A DNA stretch of 64,000 nt from Candidatus Krumholzibacteriota bacterium (GTDB lineage Bacteria; Krumholzibacteriota; Krumholzibacteriia; Krumholzibacteriales; Krumholzibacteriaceae). The translations under genes and the position numbers were made by a program. Where the stretch lies: NCBI GenBank assembly GCA_030609325.1, contig JAUWCL010000013.1, positions 1-64,000 on the forward strand, read 5' to 3'. The notes beneath the pieces are model-generated. The model searched no databases. It was not told where the DNA came from and saw only the letters and a program-made list of their open reading frames with translations. This document shows positions 8,329-53,480 of this stretch, one piece after another (the first letter of the stretch is position 1; every line of letters starts with the position of its first letter).

Positions 8329-10389
8329 ATGAATCTTTCTATAGTCATCGTCACCCATAACAGCCTGTCCCCGGTGGAGAAATGTCTCCGTTCCCTCGAG
8401 AAGCATCCTCCCGGGGGGGAGTACGAGATAATAGTTGTCGACAACGCCAGCGGCGACGGGACGCCGGAGATGATCGGCGAATCGTTTCCCCTCGTGCGGT
8501 TGGTCGCCAACGATGACAACAGGGGATATTCGAAGGGTGTAAACCAGGCGTTTCTTGCCTCGTCGGGCCGCTACTTCCTTATCCTTAATCCCGACATTGT
8601 CGTCGGGGAGGATTCGATCGACACGCTCGTCCGGTTCATGGACGACACGCCGGAGGCCGGCATCGCCGGTTCGAAGCTCGTTTTTCCCGATGGTTCCGTC
8701 CAGCCTTCCTGCAGGTCGTTCTATACGATCAGGGCCCTCTTTCTCAGGCGCACCTTTCTCGGAAAGCTCTTTCCCCGCGCGCGGGCGCTCAGGGAACATC
8801 TTATGAGCGATTGCGACCACGCCGAGGCGAGGGAGATCGACTGGATCATAGGCGCCTGCATGATCGTGCGCAGCGAGGCCATTGAGGAGGTGGGACTGAT
8901 GGACGAGAGATTCTTCCTCTATTTCGAGGATACCGACTGGTGCTACCGGATGAAGCAGCACGGCCGGCAGGTCTGGTACGTCCCCGACTCGGTCATGGTC
9001 CACCTGTACGAGCGCTCCAGCGCCAAGTCCGTAATGAGCAGGCCGTTTTTCCTGCACATGCTCAGCCTGATGCGGTATTACGAGAAGTGGAACGCGATGT
9101 TCCATTTTCTCAGGCGGCACCGGGGGACGATCAAGTCGCTTGTATTCGTCGCGAGCGACCTGATCGCGATAAACGTGAGTTTTCTCGCGGCGTACTACCT
9201 GAGGGACGCGATCCAGCCGTTCTTCGTGAACCGTCTGTATCCGCTCGACTGGTACTCGATATTCATCGTATTTTTTAATTTCCTGTTTTTACTTACATTT
9301 GTCTCGATCGGTCTGTACAGGATCCGGAGGGGAACGGGATTTACCGAGGAATTCTCCGCAGTGATCAGAGCGGTACTGATTGTGTTCGCTGTTCTTCTGA
9401 CCGCGTCGTACCTGACGAAGGTGAGGATATTCTCCAGGGCGGTCCTGCTCGGGCACGCCGTCTTCTCTGCGATCCTCATTTCGCTGTCGAGAAGGCTGAT
9501 ACGCCAGGCGCACGGGTTTCTCGTATCGGCGAGCTTCGACCTCAGGAGGGTGCTTCTGGCGGGGGACGCCGGGGAGGTGGCCGATTTCGCGGCGATGGCC
9601 TCGGACCATCCGGAGGCGGGGATCGATATAATCGGATGGGTGGGGCCCGGGGAAGGCGCGCTCGGCGGGATCGGAGACCTCCCGTCGATCGTCGAGAGGT
9701 TCAGGGTGCAGGAACTGATTGTCTTTCCCTCCGCGGGAAAGGACGACGGGATCGTGAGGATCATGACGGGTCCGGTCTCGAGGTCGATCAGGATTAATAT
9801 CATCTCGCCCGCCGCGAAGGTCACCGGCCGCGACACCCGCTCGGAACATGTAGGCGACGTCTATATGTTCACCGTCGAAAGGGGGGCGTCGTTTCTCCTG
9901 ACTACGGGCCTGCAGAGGCTCATCGATCTCGCCGCCGGGCTGGTCCTGTTCCCCCTGTCGATCCTCTGCTGGCTGCCCTTCGCGACGCTCGGCCGGATCG
10001 ACGGAGGCGTCAGGATGTTCACGGAGACTAGGAAGGGATCCGGAGGAGATTTCCGCTGGCCGAGGGTGGTGTTGAAGTCGGGAAGGGAGGCCTCGGATAT
10101 CGTAAAACCTCTCCTCGCGATGCAGCTTATCGCCGCGCGACTGTCACTTATCGGGCCGCCGGCGTCCCCGGCAGGTTCCCCTGGCGAAAGGCCTGTCATC
10201 AGGCCGGGCATATCGGGCGCGTGGCGCATTGATCCGGTGGCCGATCCCGGGAAGGCCGCGGGAGACGAGATATTGATGTTGAACAATCAGACGTTTGCGG
10301 GAAGAATCCTGCTTATGGTCCGGTCGGTCATCCCCTGTCTGGCCGGAAGATATCCGGAATGGTTTCACAGCAAGGGGGTCGACAATTGA
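8329..10389 (+). CDS. GT2 glycosyltransferase fused to a degenerate polyprenyl-phosphate glycosyl-1-phosphate transferase
   Basis: The 686-residue fusion has three parts. Residues 1-265 form a rhamnosyltransferase-like GT2 domain (VVDNASGDGT, LNPDIVV, YFEDTDWCYRM). Residues about 270-390 hold four or five membrane helices, followed by a Rossmann-like CoA_binding_3 segment (VLLAGDAGEVADF), as in the N-terminus of WbaP/PssY-type initiators. From about 528 a bacterial sugar-transferase remnant is recognisable (LQRLIDLAAGLVLFPLS, then RLSLIGPPASP in place of MSLVGPRP). The family's KFRSM block and the DE dyad of DELPQ are missing, so phosphosugar transfer is probably lost. The GT2 domain looks intact. 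Spacing to the previous gene is 18 nt. The overlap with the next gene is 4 nt (TTGA). Confidence 0.8.
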   Translation: MNLSIVIVTHNSLSPVEKCLRSLEKHPPGGEYEIIVVDNASGDGTPEMIGESFPLVRLVANDDNRGYSKGVNQAFLASSGRYFLILNPDIVVGEDSIDTLVRFMDDTPEAGIAGSKLVFPDGSVQPSCRSFYTIRALFLRRTFLGKLFPRARALREHLMSDCDHAEAREIDWIIGACMIVRSEAIEEVGLMDERFFLYFEDTDWCYRMKQHGRQVWYVPDSVMVHLYERSSAKSVMSRPFFLHMLSLMRYYEKWNAMFHFLRRHRGTIKSLVFVASDLIAINVSFLAAYYLRDAIQPFFVNRLYPLDWYSIFIVFFNFLFLLTFVSIGLYRIRRGTGFTEEFSAVIRAVLIVFAVLLTASYLTKVRIFSRAVLLGHAVFSAILISLSRRLIRQAHGFLVSASFDLRRVLLAGDAGEVADFAAMASDHPEAGIDIIGWVGPGEGALGGIGDLPSIVERFRVQELIVFPSAGKDDGIVRIMTGPVSRSIRINIISPAAKVTGRDTRSEHVGDVYMFTVERGASFLLTTGLQRLIDLAAGLVLFPLSILCWLPFATLGRIDGGVRMFTETRKGSGGDFRWPRVVLKSGREASDIVKPLLAMQLIAARLSLIGPPASPAGSPGERPVIRPGISGAWRIDPVADPGKAAGDEILMLNNQTFAGRILLMVRSVIPCLAGRYPEWFHSKGVDN

Positions 10390-12707
10390 GAGTAATGAGA
10401 TGCCTGGTCCTTGCCGCGCTGCTTGCGGGCGGAGCCGCGCATGCGGCGCCGGGGGACTGGAACGTATACATGAACGCCAGCGCGATAAGCCGGGTGACGG
10501 CGCTCGGAGACAGCCTGTGGTGCGGGACCAGGGGCGGGATCCTCCTCTTCGACCTGGGAGACTCGACTTTCACGAGCTACATCGACGGACTCGAGCTGAG
10601 ATCGAACGATATCACAGCAGTGACAGTCGACGGAAGAGGGAGCCTCTGGGCGGCGATGAGGGTCGCCGGGGTGGCGAGGATAGACAACCCCGACGGGATC
10701 TTCTCTGTGAAGGAATATACCGAGACGATCGACGGGATACTGAGCGACAGCGTTATGTGTCTTCTGAGGGTGGAGGAAGATATCTACTATGGAGGCACCG
10801 GGGGAGCGGCGAAGTTCTTCAACAACGCCCCGGCCAGCGAGCCGGTCCTCACCGACAGCCTCGCGGGGAAGACCGTGTACGACATGGCGTGGGACCCCTC
10901 CAACGATTTCCTGTGGGTGGCCTGCGGGGACGGGATAGTGAGCTACGACCGCGGCACGTTCGACTATACATTCTACGGGATCGGCGAGGTCCTGTCGGTT
11001 TGCATACACGAGGGTGAGGTCTACTGCGTCTCGGGGCCGGACGTCCGGTATCTCGGCGACGGATCGTGGCCGGTGCTCGGATCGGGTCTGCACATGGATC
11101 CCGTCGTGGTCTCCTCCGGCGGCGGCGCGCTTTACTGCATATCGCATGAAGTGACGTACCTGTGGAACGGAACTTACTGGGCCCTCCAGGCTGCGTCCGA
11201 GCTGAAGAACATGATCCTGGGGGAGTACAGGATCAGCTGGAGCCAGAATATTCTCGGAGCACTCGCTGTGGACGGCGACGGCACGCCCTGGGCAGGCGGA
11301 TTCTACGAGGAGGGATCCAGGGGGATGTTTCTCGCGGGATTTGCCGGAACGGACTGGACGGCATTCCAGCCGGAAGGGCTCACACAGAACCAGATAGTGG
11401 CCCTGGATTCCGATCCGGCCGGGAACGTCTGGATCAGCACGAGCCGATACGGGATCTCGTTCCGTTCGACCGCCGACAGGTGGATATCCTATACGAAGAT
11501 TCGAAGCGACGTCGGCCATGACGACGCGCTCTCTTACTTCATCAACAACCTTGCCCTGCTTTACGATTCCCGGGGATACCTCTGGTGTAACGCCCTTTCC
11601 TATGACCTCGACCTGATCGACGTGGAAGACCCGCTCGACAAGGACGACGATATCTGGGCCCATTTCTCCGCCGGTACAGGGACGATCACCTCCGACAGGT
11701 TCGTGAGGGCCGGGGAGGACCCGGGCGGCAACAGGTGGTTCATGTCCGACGACGTCGAGTTCAAGAGCGGGATGTGGGGGATCAACATAGCGAGCCGGGC
11801 CGGAGACGACTGGCTGACTGTAGACCCGGGCAGCCACACGCCGATGGAGGGGGGCAACGTCTTTGACTGCGCCTTCGACGACCAGGGGGCCTATATCGCC
11901 CTGAGGGGCTACGGCGTGATGTACTGGCGAACGGGCGGCTTCGACTGGCCGACGCTCACTTCCACCGCCGGCGATTACTGGATCACGATCCTAGGTGAGG
12001 ATCAGCTGCCCAGCACTGAGCTCTGGTCGGTAGAGCGGGGGCCGGACGGCAGCATCTGGGTCGGTACGTCAGCGGGCCTCGTCAGGTATTCGCAGGGGAA
12101 GATCGATTCGTTCATGGTCAAGACCGACACCCACGAGGAGGGGTTGATCGGAGGCACGGTATACGATATCGAATTCGACGGCCGCGGCGGGCTCTGGGTC
12201 GCCACGAACAAGGGCCTGAACCGGATCGATCCTGACGGCACGATAACGGCGGCGTACACGACTGCACTGAAGTGGCAGGAAGAATTCCAGCTGATCTATC
12301 CGCCCGATGTCATTTCGCCCCTTCCCGATCACTCGTGCAGGGCCCTCGCGTACGACCCGTCGGGGGGGTTCATCTGGATCGGGACGGATAACGGGCTCGC
12401 CCGCTTCGATGCGAACAAACCGGTGGAAGTGACGCAGCCGATGTCCGACATGATCCTCTATCCCAATCCCGTCCATGCCGCCAGGGGAGACAACGCGCTG
12501 AGGATCGCGAGGATAAGCGGGCTGGTGGATATCCGCGTGTACAATCTCGAGGGCGGGCTAGTTCACGAGGTCGCCGGAGTGGCGGAGGGCGAAATCGCCT
12601 GGGACCTCCTCACGCTCAACGGTTATCAGGCCTCGTCGGGTATATATGTGGTACAGGTGAAGGGAACAGGCGGTACGTCCATGAGAAAGGTTGCGGTGAT
12701 CAGGTGA
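10386..12707 (+). CDS. secreted beta-propeller protein (two-component-regulator propeller repeats) with C-terminal sorting-like domain
   Basis: TTG 10386 lies in a TTGA overlap behind a GGGGG stretch and gives a 773-residue protein with a signal peptide (CLVLAALLAGGAAHA, cleavage after AHA). The body repeats a propeller blade ending in GxLWVAT/GSIWVGT-type strands (for example GSLWAAMRVAGVARI, GTPWAGG, GSIWVGTSAGLVRY, GGLWVATNKGLNRI, GFIWIGTDNGLARF). The last 85 residues start with ILYPNPV and end in GIYVVQVKG...RKVAVIR, the layout of FlgD-like or type IX secretion sorting domains. No kinase or regulator part is present, so this is a surface or secreted sensor/adhesin-like protein. It overlaps the CapD-like gene, so it is co-expressed with the glycan genes. 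Confidence 0.82.
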   Translation: MRVMRCLVLAALLAGGAAHAAPGDWNVYMNASAISRVTALGDSLWCGTRGGILLFDLGDSTFTSYIDGLELRSNDITAVTVDGRGSLWAAMRVAGVARIDNPDGIFSVKEYTETIDGILSDSVMCLLRVEEDIYYGGTGGAAKFFNNAPASEPVLTDSLAGKTVYDMAWDPSNDFLWVACGDGIVSYDRGTFDYTFYGIGEVLSVCIHEGEVYCVSGPDVRYLGDGSWPVLGSGLHMDPVVVSSGGGALYCISHEVTYLWNGTYWALQAASELKNMILGEYRISWSQNILGALAVDGDGTPWAGGFYEEGSRGMFLAGFAGTDWTAFQPEGLTQNQIVALDSDPAGNVWISTSRYGISFRSTADRWISYTKIRSDVGHDDALSYFINNLALLYDSRGYLWCNALSYDLDLIDVEDPLDKDDDIWAHFSAGTGTITSDRFVRAGEDPGGNRWFMSDDVEFKSGMWGINIASRAGDDWLTVDPGSHTPMEGGNVFDCAFDDQGAYIALRGYGVMYWRTGGFDWPTLTSTAGDYWITILGEDQLPSTELWSVERGPDGSIWVGTSAGLVRYSQGKIDSFMVKTDTHEEGLIGGTVYDIEFDGRGGLWVATNKGLNRIDPDGTITAAYTTALKWQEEFQLIYPPDVISPLPDHSCRALAYDPSGGFIWIGTDNGLARFDANKPVEVTQPMSDMILYPNPVHAARGDNALRIARISGLVDIRVYNLEGGLVHEVAGVAEGEIAWDLLTLNGYQASSGIYVVQVKGTGGTSMRKVAVIR

Positions 12708-14146
12708 TCGGCGAAAGGCACAGGAAGGTTCTTATAGTCGGCGCGGGTGAGGCTGCCCGGATGGTCGCCTCGGAGATCGGCCGCTCTACAGAGATCAATG
12801 CCTCCATCGTGGGGTTCCTCGACGACGACGATGGTCTGGCCGGGGCGGAAGTCGAAGGAACCCCCGTGCTGGGTAAGATGACCGGGCTCGAATCGGTCGT
12901 TTCGGAGCGGAAGATCGACGAGGTCATAATAGCGATTCCAACAGCCCCGGGCAGGTTCGTGCGCGACATAATCAGGCGGTGCCGCCGCGCGGGAGTCGCC
13001 TACAAAATCGTTCCCGGGGTGATGGAGATCATAAGCGGTGCCGTCCACATAGATCAGATCCGGGAGGTCAGGGTGGAGGACCTTCTCGGGAGGGAGACGG
13101 TGAGCTTTGATCTCGAATCGGCCGCGGCCAGGCTGACCGGCAGGAAGATAATGGTGACCGGTGCCGGAGGCACTATCGGCAGCGAGCTGTGCAGACAGCT
13201 TGCCAGGGTGAAACCCGCGACGCTGATAATGCTCGGTCGCGGTGAGAACAGGATCTTCGCGATAGAGCAGGAGATCAGGGCCGATCATCCCGGGCTCGAC
13301 ATCGTCACGGTCATCAACAACCTGCGCGAGGCGGAGAGGCTCGACAAGGTGATGCACAGGCTGGCGCCCGACGTGGTGTATCATACCGCCGCGCACAAGC
13401 ACGTGCATTACATGGAACGTGATCCCGAAGAGGCGGTGATGAACAATGTTGCGGCGACGATCAACCTCGCGAGGGCCGTCGAGGAATGCGGGACGGAATG
13501 GTTCGTGTTCATCTCGACCGATAAGGCGGCCGATCCGAGAGGCGTGATGGGCGCCACCAAGAGGCTCATGGAGATGTACCTTCGGAAGATCGATCCCGAC
13601 AGCGCGTGCAGGTTCATGACCGTGCGGTTCGGAAACGTCATAGGCAGCACGGGGAGCGTAGTCCCCCTCTTCGTGGACCAGATCGGCAGGGGCGGCCCGG
13701 TGACCGTCAGCGATCCCGAGGCCACGAGATATTTCATGACCGTCAAGGAAGCGTCACTACTTGTGATCCAGGCATCGGTGTCGGGAAAGGGCGGAGAGAC
13801 CTACATCCTCGACATGGGTGAGGCGCTCAACATCCTCGAGATGGCCAGGGACATCATCATGCTTACCGGGCACGAGCCGGACGAAGAGATACCGATAGAA
13901 TATACCGGGTTGAGGGAAGGAGAGAAGCTCCACGAGGTGCTCGTCGGAGAGGACGAGACCCTCGAGCCGCCCACTCCCGGAGAAAAGATCATGCTTGCCA
14001 GATCGCCGGCGGCGACAGGCGATACCTTCAAGGCCGATGTGGACAGACTTGTCGAAGCGGCGAGAACGGGCGACAGGGTTGGTGTGCTGCGGTTGATGTC
14101 GGAGCTCATGCCCGGCTTCGGAGACGACCCGGGACGCAGCCAGTGA
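12704..14146 (+). CDS. CapD/FlaA1-type UDP-GlcNAc dehydratase-epimerase (soluble form)
   Basis: This 480-residue protein has two Rossmann parts. The N-terminal CoA_binding_3-like domain (residues 1-115, VLIVGAGEAARM and VGFLDDDD) is followed by an SDR domain from about residue 145 (TGAGGTIGSELCRQ). The catalytic stretch ISTDKAADP...MGATK has Met where classic SDRs have Tyr, as is normal for this family. HTAAHKHVHYMERDP is the other diagnostic block. The N-terminal membrane helices of WbpM/PglF are absent, so it is a cytoplasmic variant. It would convert UDP-GlcNAc to a 4-keto-6-deoxy sugar. The GTG start overlaps the previous stop (GTGA). Confidence 0.9.
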   Translation: MIGERHRKVLIVGAGEAARMVASEIGRSTEINASIVGFLDDDDGLAGAEVEGTPVLGKMTGLESVVSERKIDEVIIAIPTAPGRFVRDIIRRCRRAGVAYKIVPGVMEIISGAVHIDQIREVRVEDLLGRETVSFDLESAAARLTGRKIMVTGAGGTIGSELCRQLARVKPATLIMLGRGENRIFAIEQEIRADHPGLDIVTVINNLREAERLDKVMHRLAPDVVYHTAAHKHVHYMERDPEEAVMNNVAATINLARAVEECGTEWFVFISTDKAADPRGVMGATKRLMEMYLRKIDPDSACRFMTVRFGNVIGSTGSVVPLFVDQIGRGGPVTVSDPEATRYFMTVKEASLLVIQASVSGKGGETYILDMGEALNILEMARDIIMLTGHEPDEEIPIEYTGLREGEKLHEVLVGEDETLEPPTPGEKIMLARSPAATGDTFKADVDRLVEAARTGDRVGVLRLMSELMPGFGDDPGRSQ

Positions 14147-42999: not shown

Positions 43000-43548
43000 T
43001 TGATCACTCGCGAAGAAGCCCTGGAGATGGTGAACACGCACCTCAAAAAGAAAAACCTCGTCAAGCACGTACTAGCCGTGGAGGTCATAATGCGCGCTCT
43101 TGCAGAGCGTTACGGCGGCGACCCCGAGGTCTGGGGAATGGCCGGGTTGCTTCACGACCTCGACTACGAGCGGACTTTCGAGGATCCCGACAATCACGGG
43201 TGCGTGACGATGGACCTGATCGAGGGCGTCGACGTTCCGGAAGAGGTGCGACACGCCATTCTGGCCCACTGCGACAAGGCCGGACGCGACTCGGACATGG
43301 ACAGGGCGATATACGCCGCGGACCCCGTTACTGGCTTGATTGTTGCTTCAGCCCTGATGCATCCCTCGAAGAGCCTGGCCGAAACGGACGCCGAATTCGT
43401 GGGGAAGCGTTTCAAGGAAAAGAGGTTTGCCGCAGGCGCAAACCGTGAGGCGATTGCAAGTTGTAGCGAGCTGGGTCTTGATCTGCACGAATTTCTCGAG
43501 ATAGCCCTCGTCGCGATGAGGTCGATATCGAAGGAACTCGGACTCTGA
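43000..43548 (+). CDS. HD-domain phosphohydrolase-like protein
   Basis: 182 residues. Metal ligands of the HD fold are visible: His in NLVKHVLAVEVIMRAL, HD in GLLHDLDYE, His in HAILAHCD and a later Asp in YAADPVTG. This is the compact one-domain form often annotated as HDIG/HD-domain hydrolase. The substrate is unknown. The TTG start at 43000 follows AAAGGAGA. It is probably in one unit with recG (30-nt gap). Confidence 0.85.
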   Translation: MITREEALEMVNTHLKKKNLVKHVLAVEVIMRALAERYGGDPEVWGMAGLLHDLDYERTFEDPDNHGCVTMDLIEGVDVPEEVRHAILAHCDKAGRDSDMDRAIYAADPVTGLIVASALMHPSKSLAETDAEFVGKRFKEKRFAAGANREAIASCSELGLDLHEFLEIALVAMRSISKELGL

Positions 43549-43598: not shown

Positions 43599-44186
43599 AT
43601 GATCGTCACCTGTGACGGATGCGAGACAAAGTACATGCTCGGGGACGAGAAGGTGCCCACAGCGGGAATCAGGGTCAGGTGCCCCAAGTGCCGGTTCGTA
43701 TGGAGACTGACCCCGCCTCCGGTGACTATTGACCCCACGCTCGAGATAACGACCAACGAATACGCGACGGGTGTTCCGCTCGCCGAAACACCGGCGGGAG
43801 GATGGAGTGCTACCGAACAGCACAGGGCGGCGGCTGTCATAACGCAGCCTGAACCCGCCGTCATGAACGAAGAGGTCGAAATAACGGACGACGAGACGGC
43901 TGCGGCAGAGTCTCAGCCCGCCGTAGAGGAGACGCCGGAGATGAAGAAGAAGCGCGAGAGGGCAAAAAGGCTCGCACGCGTCTTCGTCAGCGACGTCCTC
44001 ATCTATAACCAGGAAAAGAGGGACCGCGGCCTCGCCGAAGGCGACCTGATGACCGTGCTCGGTTCCGAGATCAAGAAGGCCTGGGAGGCCTACAAGGATA
44101 AGATCGGTTCCGAAATGACCGAGTCAAGCGAGTACTTCCGTACGGCCCTCAACGAGATACTCGCCGATGGGCAGCAGGTATTCTGA
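43599..44186 (+). CDS. MJ0042-type zinc-ribbon protein
   Basis: 195 residues from ATG 43599 (GGAGG upstream at about 43584). The first 40 residues form the zinc ribbon CDGCETKY...RCPKCRFVW with two CxxC pairs. A low-complexity Pro/Thr/Glu linker follows (about 45-120), then a basic helical region KKKRERAKRLARVFVSDVLIYNQEK with a conserved-looking C-terminal helical domain to FRTALNEILADGQQVF. Similar proteins occur in myxobacteria and related groups. Function unknown. It overlaps the next gene by 20 nt, so the two products are probably functionally linked. Confidence 0.75.
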   Translation: MIVTCDGCETKYMLGDEKVPTAGIRVRCPKCRFVWRLTPPPVTIDPTLEITTNEYATGVPLAETPAGGWSATEQHRAAAVITQPEPAVMNEEVEITDDETAAAESQPAVEETPEMKKKRERAKRLARVFVSDVLIYNQEKRDRGLAEGDLMTVLGSEIKKAWEAYKDKIGSEMTESSEYFRTALNEILADGQQVF

Positions 44187-45018
44187 CGATACCCGGGCGG
44201 ATGTGAATAACCTTTCTTTGTATATCCTCAATCTGCAGCCCGCGCTGCATGACCAGTTCTTTGCCGAGGCACGCCTTCCCGAGGATGTCGAGATAAAGGT
44301 CTACAAGACCTATTCCCGATACCTCAAGAGGCTGCAGTCGGTGAAAGAGGGCAATCCGAACCTCCTCCTCTTTCTCCCATCGGGCAAGCTCGACCCGGGC
44401 AAGACGAGACAGCTCCGCCTTACGATGATCGAATCGCCGCTGTACATCGTGACGGGCGAATGCGACGAGAGGGCATACCTTACATATATCTCGATGGGAA
44501 TCGACGGAATCATCACCCCGCCTTTCAGAAGGGCCGACGTGCAGGGTGTGCTGCGCGGCGGGGCCGACCGCGGGATCCCCTTCCCGCGCAACAACGAACT
44601 GATCAGAGAGGGCCAGGTAAGGCTCGATTTCCTCGTTCCGAGCAAGCTCTCGCGCATACTCGGTGTGAACCGCCTTATCTCGTTTCTCTCGGCGGAGTTC
44701 GGGTTCCCGCCCGAGGAGAGCCGTGTCAATCTCCCCATGGTCGTCGACGAGGCGCTCAGCAACGCGATAGTCCACGGAAACCGGTCGGACGAGAATCTCA
44801 AGGTGCACGTCCGCATCTATATCAGCAGCAGACGCATACGCATCCGGATCGAGGACCAGGGAGAGGGGTTCATCCACGAGGACGTGGAGGACCCGACCGA
44901 GAAGGAAAACATCTACAAGGGGTCTGGACGGGGGATCTATCTGCTCAAGGAACTGATGGATTCGGTCGAGTTCAAAAAGGGCGGCAGGCTGATCGAGCTC
45001 GAGAAACTCAACGAATGA
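44167..45018 (+). CDS. pseudo-receiver fused to an RsbW/SpoIIAB-like HATPase domain
   Basis: 283 residues. Residues about 15-135 follow the response-regulator fold, including SPLYIVTGECDERAYLTYISMG and GIDGIITPPFRRADV. The Asp pair and phospho-acceptor Asp are missing (NLLLFLPSG at strand 3), and the conserved Lys is Pro in TPPF. Residues about 155-283 are a serine-kinase-type ATPase domain: N box VVDEALSNAIVHGN, G1 DQGEGF, G2 GSGRGIYLLKELMD. RsbW-like proteins phosphorylate STAS partners or bind sigma factors. No sigma factor or STAS gene is adjacent; a STAS-like gene is at 21077. Overlaps the zinc-ribbon gene by 20 nt. Confidence 0.8.
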   Translation: MGSRYSDDTRADVNNLSLYILNLQPALHDQFFAEARLPEDVEIKVYKTYSRYLKRLQSVKEGNPNLLLFLPSGKLDPGKTRQLRLTMIESPLYIVTGECDERAYLTYISMGIDGIITPPFRRADVQGVLRGGADRGIPFPRNNELIREGQVRLDFLVPSKLSRILGVNRLISFLSAEFGFPPEESRVNLPMVVDEALSNAIVHGNRSDENLKVHVRIYISSRRIRIRIEDQGEGFIHEDVEDPTEKENIYKGSGRGIYLLKELMDSVEFKKGGRLIELEKLNE

Positions 45019-45021
45019 CCT

Positions 45022-45462
45022 TTATTTCTCTCCCCACTTCTCGCTCGCGATCTTGTCGAGGAGATTGTTTATCTGCCCTCGGATACGCTCGTTCTGATCG
45101 GGCTCGAAGAGGACCTTCTTGACACGGCCCTTGTCGTCCTTCTTGACGTAACGGAGGGCCTTGATGTTTTCCATCGGGATAAGGATGTCCTTGCTGACGC
45201 GGACTTCTATCGGTCTTTTGTCGAGGTTCCTGTCGGAATTGTTGAAGGGGTGCATTCCGATGCCCCAGCCGTGCACGAACATCGAGCATATTATCGCCCG
45301 GAAAGTGTTCTGCCGCTGTACCGTATCGAGATCGAAGGTATCCCGGAACTTGTCCATCATCCCGTTTATCACGTCGTTCAGCCTGGAGAAAACTTCATCC
45401 TCGGGCTCCATGTTTACCAGGCGATGAAAGACTTCCCTGAGGATTTTCTCGGTGATCTCCAT
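45022..45462 (-). CDS. hypothetical protein
   Basis: 146 residues. I do not recognise a family. The first 65 residues look helical (EITEKILREVFHRLVNMEPEDEV), a central part holds FVHGWGIGMHPFNN, and the C-terminal half alternates strands and a final helix (IRGQINNLLDKIASEK). No signal peptide or membrane helix. It is the last gene of a minus-strand operon, 11 nt after the MFS gene, and converges on the HATPase gene with only 3 nt between stops. The ribosome site upstream of its ATG is GGGAG-like. Confidence 0.7.
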   Translation of the reverse strand: MEITEKILREVFHRLVNMEPEDEVFSRLNDVINGMMDKFRDTFDLDTVQRQNTFRAIICSMFVHGWGIGMHPFNNSDRNLDKRPIEVRVSKDILIPMENIKALRYVKKDDKGRVKKVLFEPDQNERIRGQINNLLDKIASEKWGEK

Positions 45463-50083: not shown

Positions 50084-51241
50084 ATGGCTGTCTACAATTA
50101 CGCCGGCGGAGAAGTAAACATAAAGATAGTATATTACGGCCCCGGACTCAGCGGGAAGACGACGAACCTCGAATATATGTATTCGAAGCTCCCGCGGGAG
50201 AACAAGGGCAAGATGATCTCGATGAAGACCCGGACCGACAGGACGCTCTTCTTCGATTTCCTTCCGATCGAGGTCGGGGAACTGGGCAGCCTCAAGGTAA
50301 GGTTCCTGCTCTACACCGTTCCGGGACAGGTCTACTACAACGCGACGAGGAAGCTCGTGCTCAAGGGCGTGGACGCCCTCGTGTTTGTGGCGGATTCGTC
50401 TCCAGACAGGCTCGGCGATGACAGGGAGAGCCTCGACAACCTCGAGGAGAACCTCAACGAGATCGGAATGTCGCTCTCCGGTACTCCATGGGTGATGCAG
50501 TACAACAAGAGGGACGTCCCGGGATGCATGAAGAAAAAGATGCTCGAGAAGGAGCTCAATACACGGAATGTCCCGTCGTTCGAGGCGGTTGCGACAGATG
50601 GCAGGGGCGTATACGAGACATTCGAGGGGATTGCGAAACTGGTCTTCAAGAGGCTCAGGCACGAGCTCAACGACAAGAAGGCCGGAAATGACGACAGTAG
50701 GGACAGCGAACCCGGCGGCGGACCGGTCGACGTGGAGGTCGTCGCGCAGGGTACTTCAACGATAATTAACTCAGAGGCAGGCGAGAGCGAGACTTCAGGT
50801 TACGCAGAGGAGAGAGAAGAGGAGCACGAGTCTGTCTCTGAGTTTGTAGATCACATGCTGAAGGAAGACGCGGACTTGGCCGAATCGGTCAAGGACCTCG
50901 GAATGGAGAGGGAAGGGTACGAGGAATACGGGCACATGGTCGAGCTCGGAGACAACAACAACGGATCGGCCGGGGAAGAGGCCGAGGGTGAAGCGAGTGT
51001 GGCGGTGGCGGAGAAGGAAGAGGACGAGGAGAAAAAGAAAAAAGAGTTCATAAACGATCCGCTCGTGAAGTTTGCCGGGGAAAAGCCCGAGACGGCCGGG
51101 GACGCGGCGCCCGGTCCCGCCGAGGAGACCGAGGAACGCCCCGCCAAGATGGTAACAGTCCCGGTCGAGCTCACCGAGGAGGAGATACGCAACGAGGTCC
51201 CGGTCAAGATCATACTTGACATAAAGGTCCATTCAGGCTGA
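50084..51241 (+). CDS. MglA-like Ras-family GTPase with a long acidic C-terminal tail
   Basis: 385 residues from ATG 50084 (AAGGAG at 50069-50074). Residues 1-195 match bacterial MglA: IVYYGPGLSGKTTN (P-loop), RTLFFDFLPIEVG, the switch YTVPGQVYYNATR, NKRD (base recognition) and VATDGRGVYETF. MglA sets cell polarity in Myxococcus and Thermus, normally with the GAP MglB. Known MglA ends near residue 195. Here about 190 more residues follow, highly acidic with low-complexity stretches (EDEEKKKKEF) and a predicted short structured end (VTVPVELTEEEIRNEVPVKI). No mglB-like gene is visible in the window. Confidence 0.88.
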   Translation: MAVYNYAGGEVNIKIVYYGPGLSGKTTNLEYMYSKLPRENKGKMISMKTRTDRTLFFDFLPIEVGELGSLKVRFLLYTVPGQVYYNATRKLVLKGVDALVFVADSSPDRLGDDRESLDNLEENLNEIGMSLSGTPWVMQYNKRDVPGCMKKKMLEKELNTRNVPSFEAVATDGRGVYETFEGIAKLVFKRLRHELNDKKAGNDDSRDSEPGGGPVDVEVVAQGTSTIINSEAGESETSGYAEEREEEHESVSEFVDHMLKEDADLAESVKDLGMEREGYEEYGHMVELGDNNNGSAGEEAEGEASVAVAEKEEDEEKKKKEFINDPLVKFAGEKPETAGDAAPGPAEETEERPAKMVTVPVELTEEEIRNEVPVKIILDIKVHSG

Positions 51242-51346: not shown

Positions 51347-51709
51347 ATGGCAAAGATCCTCATAGTAGACGACGAAATCAACGTCAGGAAGCTCTACAGT
51401 GAAGAGCTCGAGGGAGAGGGTTATGAGACCGTTTCGGCCGGGACGGTCGCCGAGGCGATCGAATCGGTCGAAACGGAATCGCCGGACCTGATGATCCTCG
51501 ACATGAAGCTCGGTGACGAAAGCGGGATCGACGCGCTCATAGAGATCGCCGAGAGGCGCAAGGACCTTCCCGTAATAATCAATTCGGCATATTCGGTCTA
51601 CAAGGACAACTTCCAGACGTGGGCGGCCGACGCCTACATCGTCAAGTCCGTCGATCTCACTCCGCTCAAGGAGAAGGTCAGGGAGCTCCTCGGCAGCTCG
51701 TGTCAGTGA
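51347..51709 (+). CDS. single-domain response regulator (CheY/DivK-like receiver)
   Basis: 120 residues, a lone receiver domain. It begins ILIVDDEINVRKLY with the acidic pair, has the phospho-acceptor Asp in LMILDMKLGDESG near residue 50, Ser at the end of strand 4 (IINSAYS) and the conserved Lys in YIVKSVD. It lacks an output domain, so it acts by protein contact. GGGGGAG precedes the ATG. The MglA-like GTPase gene is immediately upstream, which suggests polarity or motility-type signalling. No histidine kinase is present in the window. Confidence 0.93.
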   Translation: MAKILIVDDEINVRKLYSEELEGEGYETVSAGTVAEAIESVETESPDLMILDMKLGDESGIDALIEIAERRKDLPVIINSAYSVYKDNFQTWAADAYIVKSVDLTPLKEKVRELLGSSCQ

Positions 51710-52322: not shown

Positions 52323-53480
52323 ATGGGCATGCGCTGGGAGAAGCTTCTCGAGTTCACAAGGGGTGAGGTGCGGGAAGAGAGCAGGGAGATCGCGCGTCTG
52401 AAAAGGAAATCGTCACTGGGCGAGGCGGATGTCGAGGAGGTCCTCGAACTCGCCGAGCTCTATCTCCACAAGAGAAACAGCCCGAAAGCAGAGATCTGCC
52501 TCCGCGACGTGATCGCGCACGACGAGGCCGACGAAGAGGAGATACTCGAGGCGTGCAGCATGTTCGAGAGGATGGGCAAGTACGATCTCGCCCTCGAGGG
52601 GTACAGGCGGATCGACGGGATGGGGGACGGTGAGGCCATCCCGCTCTACAGGATGGGAAGGATCCTCGAGCGGCAGGGCCGTTTCGACGAGGCAGTCCGA
52701 TTCCACAGGAAGGCGATCGAGAGGGAGCCCGATAATCCGGAATGCTACTATCGTCTCGGCGTGGCCTACATGAAGAGCCGCAGGTACGATGAGGCCGAGA
52801 AGATGTACCGGCAGGCGATCACCACCGATCCGACCCATTCGAAATCATACACGAACCTCGGATACATCCTCGATCGCGAGGGACGCCGCAGCGCTGCACT
52901 GCAGCAGTTTCGCAAGGCCGTGCAGCACAATCCCCGCAACGCCGAGGCGCATTTCAATCTCGGTGCTCTCTACGGCGAGGAAGGGGACAAGAAGCAGGCG
53001 ATCAAGGAGTTCAGGGTAGGGCTCGAGATCGATCCGTCGTCCATCGAGGGACACTATAACCTCGGGCTGGCGCTGAAGGACGAACGCAGGTTCGACGATG
53101 CGGGCAATGAGTTCAGGAAGATCCTCAAGCTTGAGAGCGACAATGTGGGCGCGCTCTTCTATCTCGGATTCATCTACTACAGCAAGGGCGTCTACGGGAA
53201 GTCGCTGAAGTATCTCCAGCAGGCCGTGAGGCTCAATCCGGGTAACGCTACGATCCTCTACTACGTCGGCGAGTGTTTCAACAGGCTCGAGCAGCCGGAG
53301 AAGGCCCTCGAGTATTACAAGAAGGTGACCGAGATCAATCCGGGCGACCCCAAGGTCTATTTCAGCCTCGGCATCTCGTACGAGAAGCAGGACGACAAGA
53401 GAAAGGCGCGAGAGTGCTACCGTATGGCAGCCGGCGTATCTCACGAACGAAGCCCGGAACAGGGACAGACCGCCGAATGA
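52323..53480 (+). CDS. TPR-repeat protein
   Basis: 385 residues without a signal peptide. From about residue 35 it is a chain of about ten TPR units, e.g. GRFDEAVRFHRKAIEREPDN, RRYDEAEKMYRQAITTDPTH, GDKKQAIKEFRVGLEIDPSS, QPEKALEYYKKVTEINPGD. The basic N-terminus (RWEKLLEFTRGEVREESRE) may be a coiled coil. It is probably a cytoplasmic scaffold. It overlaps the next gene, a Wzi-like outer-membrane protein, by 4 nt, so a link to capsule or surface assembly is possible. Confidence 0.86.
   Translation: MGMRWEKLLEFTRGEVREESREIARLKRKSSLGEADVEEVLELAELYLHKRNSPKAEICLRDVIAHDEADEEEILEACSMFERMGKYDLALEGYRRIDGMGDGEAIPLYRMGRILERQGRFDEAVRFHRKAIEREPDNPECYYRLGVAYMKSRRYDEAEKMYRQAITTDPTHSKSYTNLGYILDREGRRSAALQQFRKAVQHNPRNAEAHFNLGALYGEEGDKKQAIKEFRVGLEIDPSSIEGHYNLGLALKDERRFDDAGNEFRKILKLESDNVGALFYLGFIYYSKGVYGKSLKYLQQAVRLNPGNATILYYVGECFNRLEQPEKALEYYKKVTEINPGDPKVYFSLGISYEKQDDKRKARECYRMAAGVSHERSPEQGQTAE

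Follow-up and report, generated by a model that had tools for sequence, protein, structure and literature searches.

We found that a pair of adjoining genes in Krumholzibacteriota, one for a zinc-ribbon protein and one for a receiver-like domain fused to an RsbW-type ATPase domain, lies in a conserved gene cluster together with an MglA-type small GTPase, and that the zinc-ribbon protein (ZnR-RomX) ends in a domain homologous to RomX. MglA is the cell-polarity switch of gliding bacteria and RomX is its partner, and the Krumholzibacteriota are a phylum known mostly from metagenomes. We propose, at a probability of about one half, that the pair forms the signalling end of an MglA polarity-type module, in which ZnR-RomX would bridge MglA-GTP to a pseudo-receiver and would thereby gate the RsbW-like domain. 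The pair lies in the window, by which we mean the whole 64,000-nt stretch of DNA that was analysed, from a 2.63-Mb genome in 56 contigs.

The zinc-ribbon and kinase genes

The earlier note had described two genes within 43599-45018 (their frames are 43599-44186 and 44167-45018), the first for a zinc-ribbon protein and the second for a receiver lacking both the phospho-Asp and the Lys (with TPPF in its place) joined to an intact-looking HATPase domain, and all of these points were borne out. Their features on the window are as follows.

43599..44186, + strand: ZnR-RomX protein (gene 1), 195 aa, with zinc ribbon, variable linker and RomX domain (ATG at 43599, stop at 44186)
43599..43706, + strand: MJ0042/GltJ-type zinc ribbon with C5, C8, C28 and C31 (PF13717; PDB 7zok)
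43950..44165, + strand: RomX domain, residues 118-189 (homology to PDB 8zna)
44167..44186, + strand: 20-nt overlap of both open reading frames, if ATG 44167 is the start; alternative start at the in-frame GTG 44203
44167..45018, + strand: pseudo-receiver/RsbW-type HATPase fusion (gene 2, the kinase gene), 283 aa (Pfam, AlphaFold2 model and fold matches)
44206..44574, + strand: pseudo-receiver domain, residues 14-136, with neither phospho-Asp nor Lys (profile, fold and alignment)
44515..44526, + strand: TPPF, residues 117-120, at the beta5 Lys position; second Pro invariant in 29/29
44614..45015, + strand: RsbW/SpoIIAB-type HATPase domain, residues 150-283, with all nucleotide-binding motifs intact

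Residues 1-36 of the gene 1 product form an MJ0042-type zinc ribbon (PF13717, E 3.5e-13), whose Cys 5, 8, 28 and 31 are invariant in 32/32 aligned ZnR-RomX sequences and which NCBIfam NF033761 also matches, over 32 residues. The nearest solved structure is the ribbon of AgmX, also named GltJ (PDB 7zok, 8.4e-6); the zinc-ribbon type is shared, while the rest of the 671-position GltJ model found no match. At the other end of the protein, the C-terminal 72 residues match M. xanthus RomX (PDB 8zna) at 1.1e-9 when searched as a single sequence, at 7.5e-13 with a family profile and at 4.9e-14 with a domain-only profile, and the next matches in the domain-only search were eIF3b chains, which are unrelated, at E 0.0088 or worse. 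Judged by these three sequence queries, the C-terminus is a RomX domain. Its final stretch (consensus NEILADGQxxF) is among the most conserved of the family, and it is this conserved C-terminus that dictates the overlapping frame at 44167. The 20-nt overlap reported earlier is present in the open reading frames but, as an overlap of genes, depends on ATG 44167 being the start of gene 2, with GTG 44203 as a possible start instead; several relatives begin gene 2 with a GTG ~9 nt past the ZnR stop. An RNA element in the overlap found no backing, as the segment had no excess fold stability (z 0.31), and promoter and terminator signals were at chance level only.

The C-terminal half of the gene 2 product matches PF13581 (HATPase_c_2) at E 3.6e-20 and RsbW at E 6.5e-20 in a profile search, and it superposes on SpoIIAB with a Z of 17.9 and an rmsd of 2.2 over 128 aligned residues; its kinship is thus to the RsbW/SpoIIAB type, although its scores do not reach the curated cut-offs for RsbW and SpoIIAB. 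The N-box positions E195, N199, H203 and G204, the D230/G232/G234 motif and the G254/R255/G256 motif are invariant in 29/29 sequences, in an alignment that omits L096 (over-long frame), L113 (missing receiver) and L116 (run of N). The fold and motifs are those of the anti-sigma kinases RsbW and SpoIIAB, from which gene 2 differs by the fused pseudo-receiver. The four closest relatives of gene 2 in named genomes are 65-75% identical and are all labelled Candidatus Krumholzibacteriia or Krumholzibacteriota.

The N-terminal domain called for a different kind of evidence. PF00072 gave no receiver match in the window's gene 2 protein even at E<=1, a genome-wide receiver search at E<=10 returned 36 other receivers with the pseudo-receiver absent from among them, and only 4/29 relatives were matched, weakly (best 0.053). 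Since Pfam alone fails on the window protein, we judged the receiver fold by family profile and by structure. The pseudo-receiver family profile aligned to a profile of 29 receivers from the same genome (29 of 30 receiver loci passed the length filter) with an hhalign probability of 82.5% and an E of 9.8e-6, whereas reversed and unrelated control profiles reached at most 1.2%. In an AlphaFold2 model of the gene 2 product, built from a 29-row alignment (pLDDT 84.4), residues 17-130 follow the (beta-alpha)5 order, and solved receivers align to the model over approximately residues 14-136, with Z ~12 and rmsd ~2.7-3. The likeness to receivers by profile search, on which the earlier note had staked its reading, thus held for the family profile and failed for Pfam. 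The active site is gone: the likeliest phospho-Asp slot, residue 69, holds Asp in 0/29 sequences, and the Lys slot, residue 118, holds Lys in 0/29 and Pro in 25. By profile, alignment and predicted model, the N-terminal domain is a receiver fold without an active site.

Conservation of the pair and the MglA cluster around it

ZnR-RomX is present in 70 of 80 Krumholzibacteriota genomes, and the kinase gene adjoins it in 32 of the 80, spanning 7/8 families (G000 and G020, plus 30 genomes with fetched loci). The zinc-ribbon gene lies directly upstream of the kinase gene in 32/32, mostly at a spacing between a 20-nt overlap and a gap of some tens of nt (the frame in L096 is over-extended), and the kinase never occurs at this locus without ZnR-RomX. 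The pairing suggested by the earlier note is therefore conserved in every genome that has the kinase at the locus. Its picture of a self-contained two-gene unit did not survive: 38 of the 70 ZnR-RomX genomes have no adjacent kinase (35 of family f6, together with G001, G010 and G078), and among the 20 of these 38 loci that we examined (17 of f6 and the other three) no kinase gene was found beside ZnR-RomX. Few RomX residues differ where the kinase is absent and f6 is a single clade, so we claim no interface from them.

The pair also proved to be more than an ordinary two-gene curiosity, given its RomX domain and the MglA gene of the cluster around it. The following genes of the window belong to this cluster as well.

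45022..45462, - strand: X146, a conserved 146-aa protein, family unassigned, convergent with the kinase gene
50084..51241, + strand: MglA-type small GTPase with a long acidic extension and a conserved C-terminal tail (PDB 6h17; TVPGQ and NKRD present)
51347..51709, + strand: stand-alone canonical receiver, downstream of MglA (PF00072, 7.6e-21)
52323..53480, + strand: TPR protein, 385 aa (PF00515, 2.6e-60)

The recurring gene order is recG, (HD), ZnR-RomX, kinase, X146, (MFS-GT4-LpxL), (a small zinc-ribbon protein and a lipoprotein-like protein), MglA and TPR, with the bracketed parts varying; rpmB, a radical-SAM gene and other genes unrelated to the module are kept in the cluster besides recG. 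In families f1 and f2 an HD-domain protein (43000-43548 in the window) separates recG from ZnR-RomX; in the other fetched families none was found at this position.

The GTPase, whose gene lies ~6 kb downstream of the ZnR-RomX/kinase pair in the same conserved cluster, matches M. xanthus MglA (PDB 6h17) at 1.1e-68. Its PGQ and NKxD-type motifs are kept in 27/27 loci that have both the kinase and a visible MglA, the window included. Family f6 differs: an MglA-like gene is present in 13/17 loci (L165-L171 and L179-L184) but is degenerate, with no TVPGQ and with the GTPase region matched only in part, and the P-loop, read by eye in the window and in four f6 proteins, is GKT in the former and GKR in the latter. 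Among the four remaining f6 loci, one is cut off by the end of its contig, and in three X146 has no MglA-like neighbour. The degenerate f6 protein is a possible pseudo-GTPase, judging from these motifs; the conserved C-terminal tail of MglA is present in the degenerate copies as well. In the loci that were examined, then, the kinase is confined to those whose MglA looks functional as a switch, although a canonical MglA without the kinase occurs in G001 and G010. Because f6 is one clade, its lack of the kinase and the decay of its MglA were probably a single evolutionary event and not independent losses.

The TPR gene recurs near MglA in relatives. In Bdellovibrio, a known TPR protein binds both MglA and RomR (PMC3983030, in the part of the article available), and by analogy the TPR gene of the window would fit such a protein. 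X146 is 43-80% identical to 21 aligned relatives and present in 71/80 genomes of the phylum; the genomes that lack it also lack ZnR-RomX, and G046 is the one genome to carry X146 but no ZnR-RomX. Some of the joint absences may reflect assembly gaps. No match was found for it by sequence in Pfam, NCBIfam or the PDB, nor by fold in Foldseek at E<1, with a model of moderate confidence (pLDDT 73). X146 may be a new partner for either MglA or RomX and, by gene conservation, the core of the cluster is ZnR-RomX, X146 and MglA. As a candidate for MglB, the roadblock protein of the M. xanthus-type polarity module, the genome encodes one roadblock protein, on another contig.

The stand-alone receiver opens the main rival to our bridging model. 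RomX might pair with this receiver, as a RomR/RomX-like unit working by ordinary phosphorylation, and the kinase would then be a separate regulator that is merely co-transcribed. The receiver is indeed canonical and is conserved beside MglA in families f1-f4, but the fetched loci of f5, f7 and f8 that keep the ZnR-kinase pair showed none in the vicinity of MglA, and it is the kinase gene to which ZnR-RomX is tightly adjacent. We therefore regard this explanation as unlikely, though it deserves more weight than the other alternatives considered below.

Known relatives and RomX in other phyla

RomX of M. xanthus interacts with MglA-GTP and with the RomR receiver (PMC12719032, PMC9481161 and PMC10329633, in the portions accessible), and whether it acts as a GEF or is a mere MglA-GTP effector is disputed, as far as the accessible text of PMC12719032 goes. 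The window resembles this system in the RomX homology of the ZnR protein and in having an MglA gene in the cluster, and it differs in that its RomX domain is fused to a zinc ribbon and adjoins a pseudo-receiver kinase. No RomR, with its receiver-linker-RomR-C arrangement, was found beside ZnR-RomX at the locus. The gene 2 product itself cannot be taken for RomR, which joins a canonical receiver to a disordered linker and a Glu-rich RomR-C helix, whereas in gene 2 the receiver site is lost and the remainder is a HATPase domain.

The best full-length Foldseek match of the gene 2 model was LvrC of Leptospira (PDB 9qih, 7.5e-16), which likewise has a receiver followed by an RsbW-type Bergerat domain. 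The alignment covers 256 residues at an rmsd of 17.2, which means that the domain arrangement differs between the two proteins. This match allows a second alternative, namely that the gene 2 product is an LvrC-like anti-sigma factor whose pseudo-receiver serves dimerisation only and which the ZnR protein or MglA merely places in the cell; the LvrC receivers do take part in its dimer (PMC13269768, accessible part). The LvrC receiver, however, is canonical and is phosphorylated by LvrB, while the corresponding site is gone in 29/29 gene 2 sequences, and the accessible part of the same article mentions no link of LvrC to MglA or RomX. Among the gene 2 neighbours run through Pfam (part of the window's genes) there was no STAS or sigma protein, and that no sigma gene was identified among them also counts against this second alternative, which we consider improbable.

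RomX-like domains are found well beyond M. xanthus. The RomX-domain profile matched 51/297 genomes sampled from the phylum of G111 (titled Deltaproteobacteria bacterium) and 189/297 sampled from that of G094 (titled Acidobacteriota). In 6 of 8 Pfam-checked proteins from these two phyla (L205, L206, L207, L208, L211 and L227, with the ribbon of L205 below the cut-off), zinc ribbon, receiver and RomX stand in one chain, and L217, whose frame holds no ribbon, joins a receiver to RomX. The modules are the same three as in the window, but in these fusions they share a single chain and no HATPase is attached. By eye, neither the beta1 acidic pair nor the beta5 Lys is left in the six fusion receivers, and the beta3 Asp survives in most. 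These altered active sites indicate that the window is not alone in having RomX next to a receiver that is dead or altered. A special likeness between the pseudo-receiver and the fusion receivers was looked for and rejected, as hhalign gave <=1.1% against 7 receivers of RomX fusion proteins and 82.5% against the 29 receivers of its own genome. L185, which by eye had seemed to join a zinc ribbon to a degenerate receiver, was not counted, since Pfam finds the ribbon and no receiver. In Acidobacteriota (L204, L230-L249), the RomX-like domain often lies near the C-terminus of long proteins that have no zinc ribbon.

A third alternative is that the two genes of the pair are not directly connected and have stayed neighbours through shared ancestry, the cluster being slow to rearrange. 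This reading could draw on the retention of recG, rpmB, the radical-SAM gene and other unrelated genes, but it is very unlikely given that the adjacency has held over 7 families while the HD gene and the MFS-GT4-LpxL block come and go, that the kinase never occurs at this locus without ZnR-RomX, and that ZnR, receiver and RomX are fused in one chain elsewhere.

Each part of the locus thus has a known relative (RomX, the GltJ ribbon, MglA and the LvrC-type receiver-RsbW protein), and the combination appears to be new: nothing in the literature that we searched, which included few subscription papers and no preprints and was judged by titles and abstract openings, joined RomX to a zinc ribbon or MglA to RsbW.

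A proposed route from MglA to the RsbW-like domain

In the bridging model, ZnR-RomX would act as an adaptor, with its RomX domain contacting both MglA in the GTP-loaded state and the pseudo-receiver of gene 2, the latter much as M. xanthus RomX docks on the RomR receiver. The earlier note had suggested that the pseudo-receiver could bind the zinc-ribbon protein to gate the kinase. This suggestion gains a concrete basis from the RomX domain of the ZnR protein, as RomX binds the RomR receiver in M. xanthus (PMC12719032, accessible part), and the binding itself is predicted by analogy. Because the receiver is not phosphorylatable in the usual way, no histidine kinase would control its state, which would depend instead on the binding of RomX, alone or together with MglA-GTP. 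Docking would then expose or shield the RsbW-like domain, which may act on a partner of the STAS or sigma type, encoded elsewhere, either as a serine kinase or by sequestering it. In its strongest form, the proposal is that a small MglA-family GTPase directly gates an RsbW-type serine kinase via ZnR-RomX and the pseudo-receiver, with the dead receiver serving as a docking switch; this we hold more tentatively, as a possibility to which we would give distinctly less than even odds.

Several observations favor the bridging model: the RomX identity of the ZnR protein, the motif-intact MglA in the cluster, the adjacency of the kinase gene in 32/32 genomes, the ZnR-REC-RomX chains in other phyla, the full-length fold match to LvrC, and the condition of f6, which lacks the kinase and has a degenerate MglA. 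Others weigh against it. The canonical stand-alone receiver at 51347-51709 could be the partner of RomX instead, the f6 association is probably one event, G001 and G010 have a canonical MglA and no kinase, the pseudo-receiver is mostly missing in G004 (L113) although the gene pair is kept there, and the pseudo-receiver has no special likeness to the receivers fused to RomX.

If the strongest form of the proposal is true, the locus encodes a G-protein-to-partner-switching pathway that runs through a RomX adaptor and a dead receiver. The locus offers a testable wiring by which MglA-type GTPases might reach beyond motility, to the regulation of genes or the phosphorylation of proteins, with X146 as an added conserved protein that travels with the RomX module, and the many Acidobacteriota proteins and the ZnR-receiver-RomX fusions place RomX in a broader setting than that of M. 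xanthus. The organism has the components needed for partner switching, as seen from 10 STAS matches and 5 SpoIIE-type phosphatases in the genome and from the clustering of STAS, HATPase and SpoIIE domains on contigs C33 and C36. Near 9167-13075 of G000:C33, a 1423-aa open frame carries HATPase, SpoIIE phosphatase and several STAS domains and is followed by more STAS genes.
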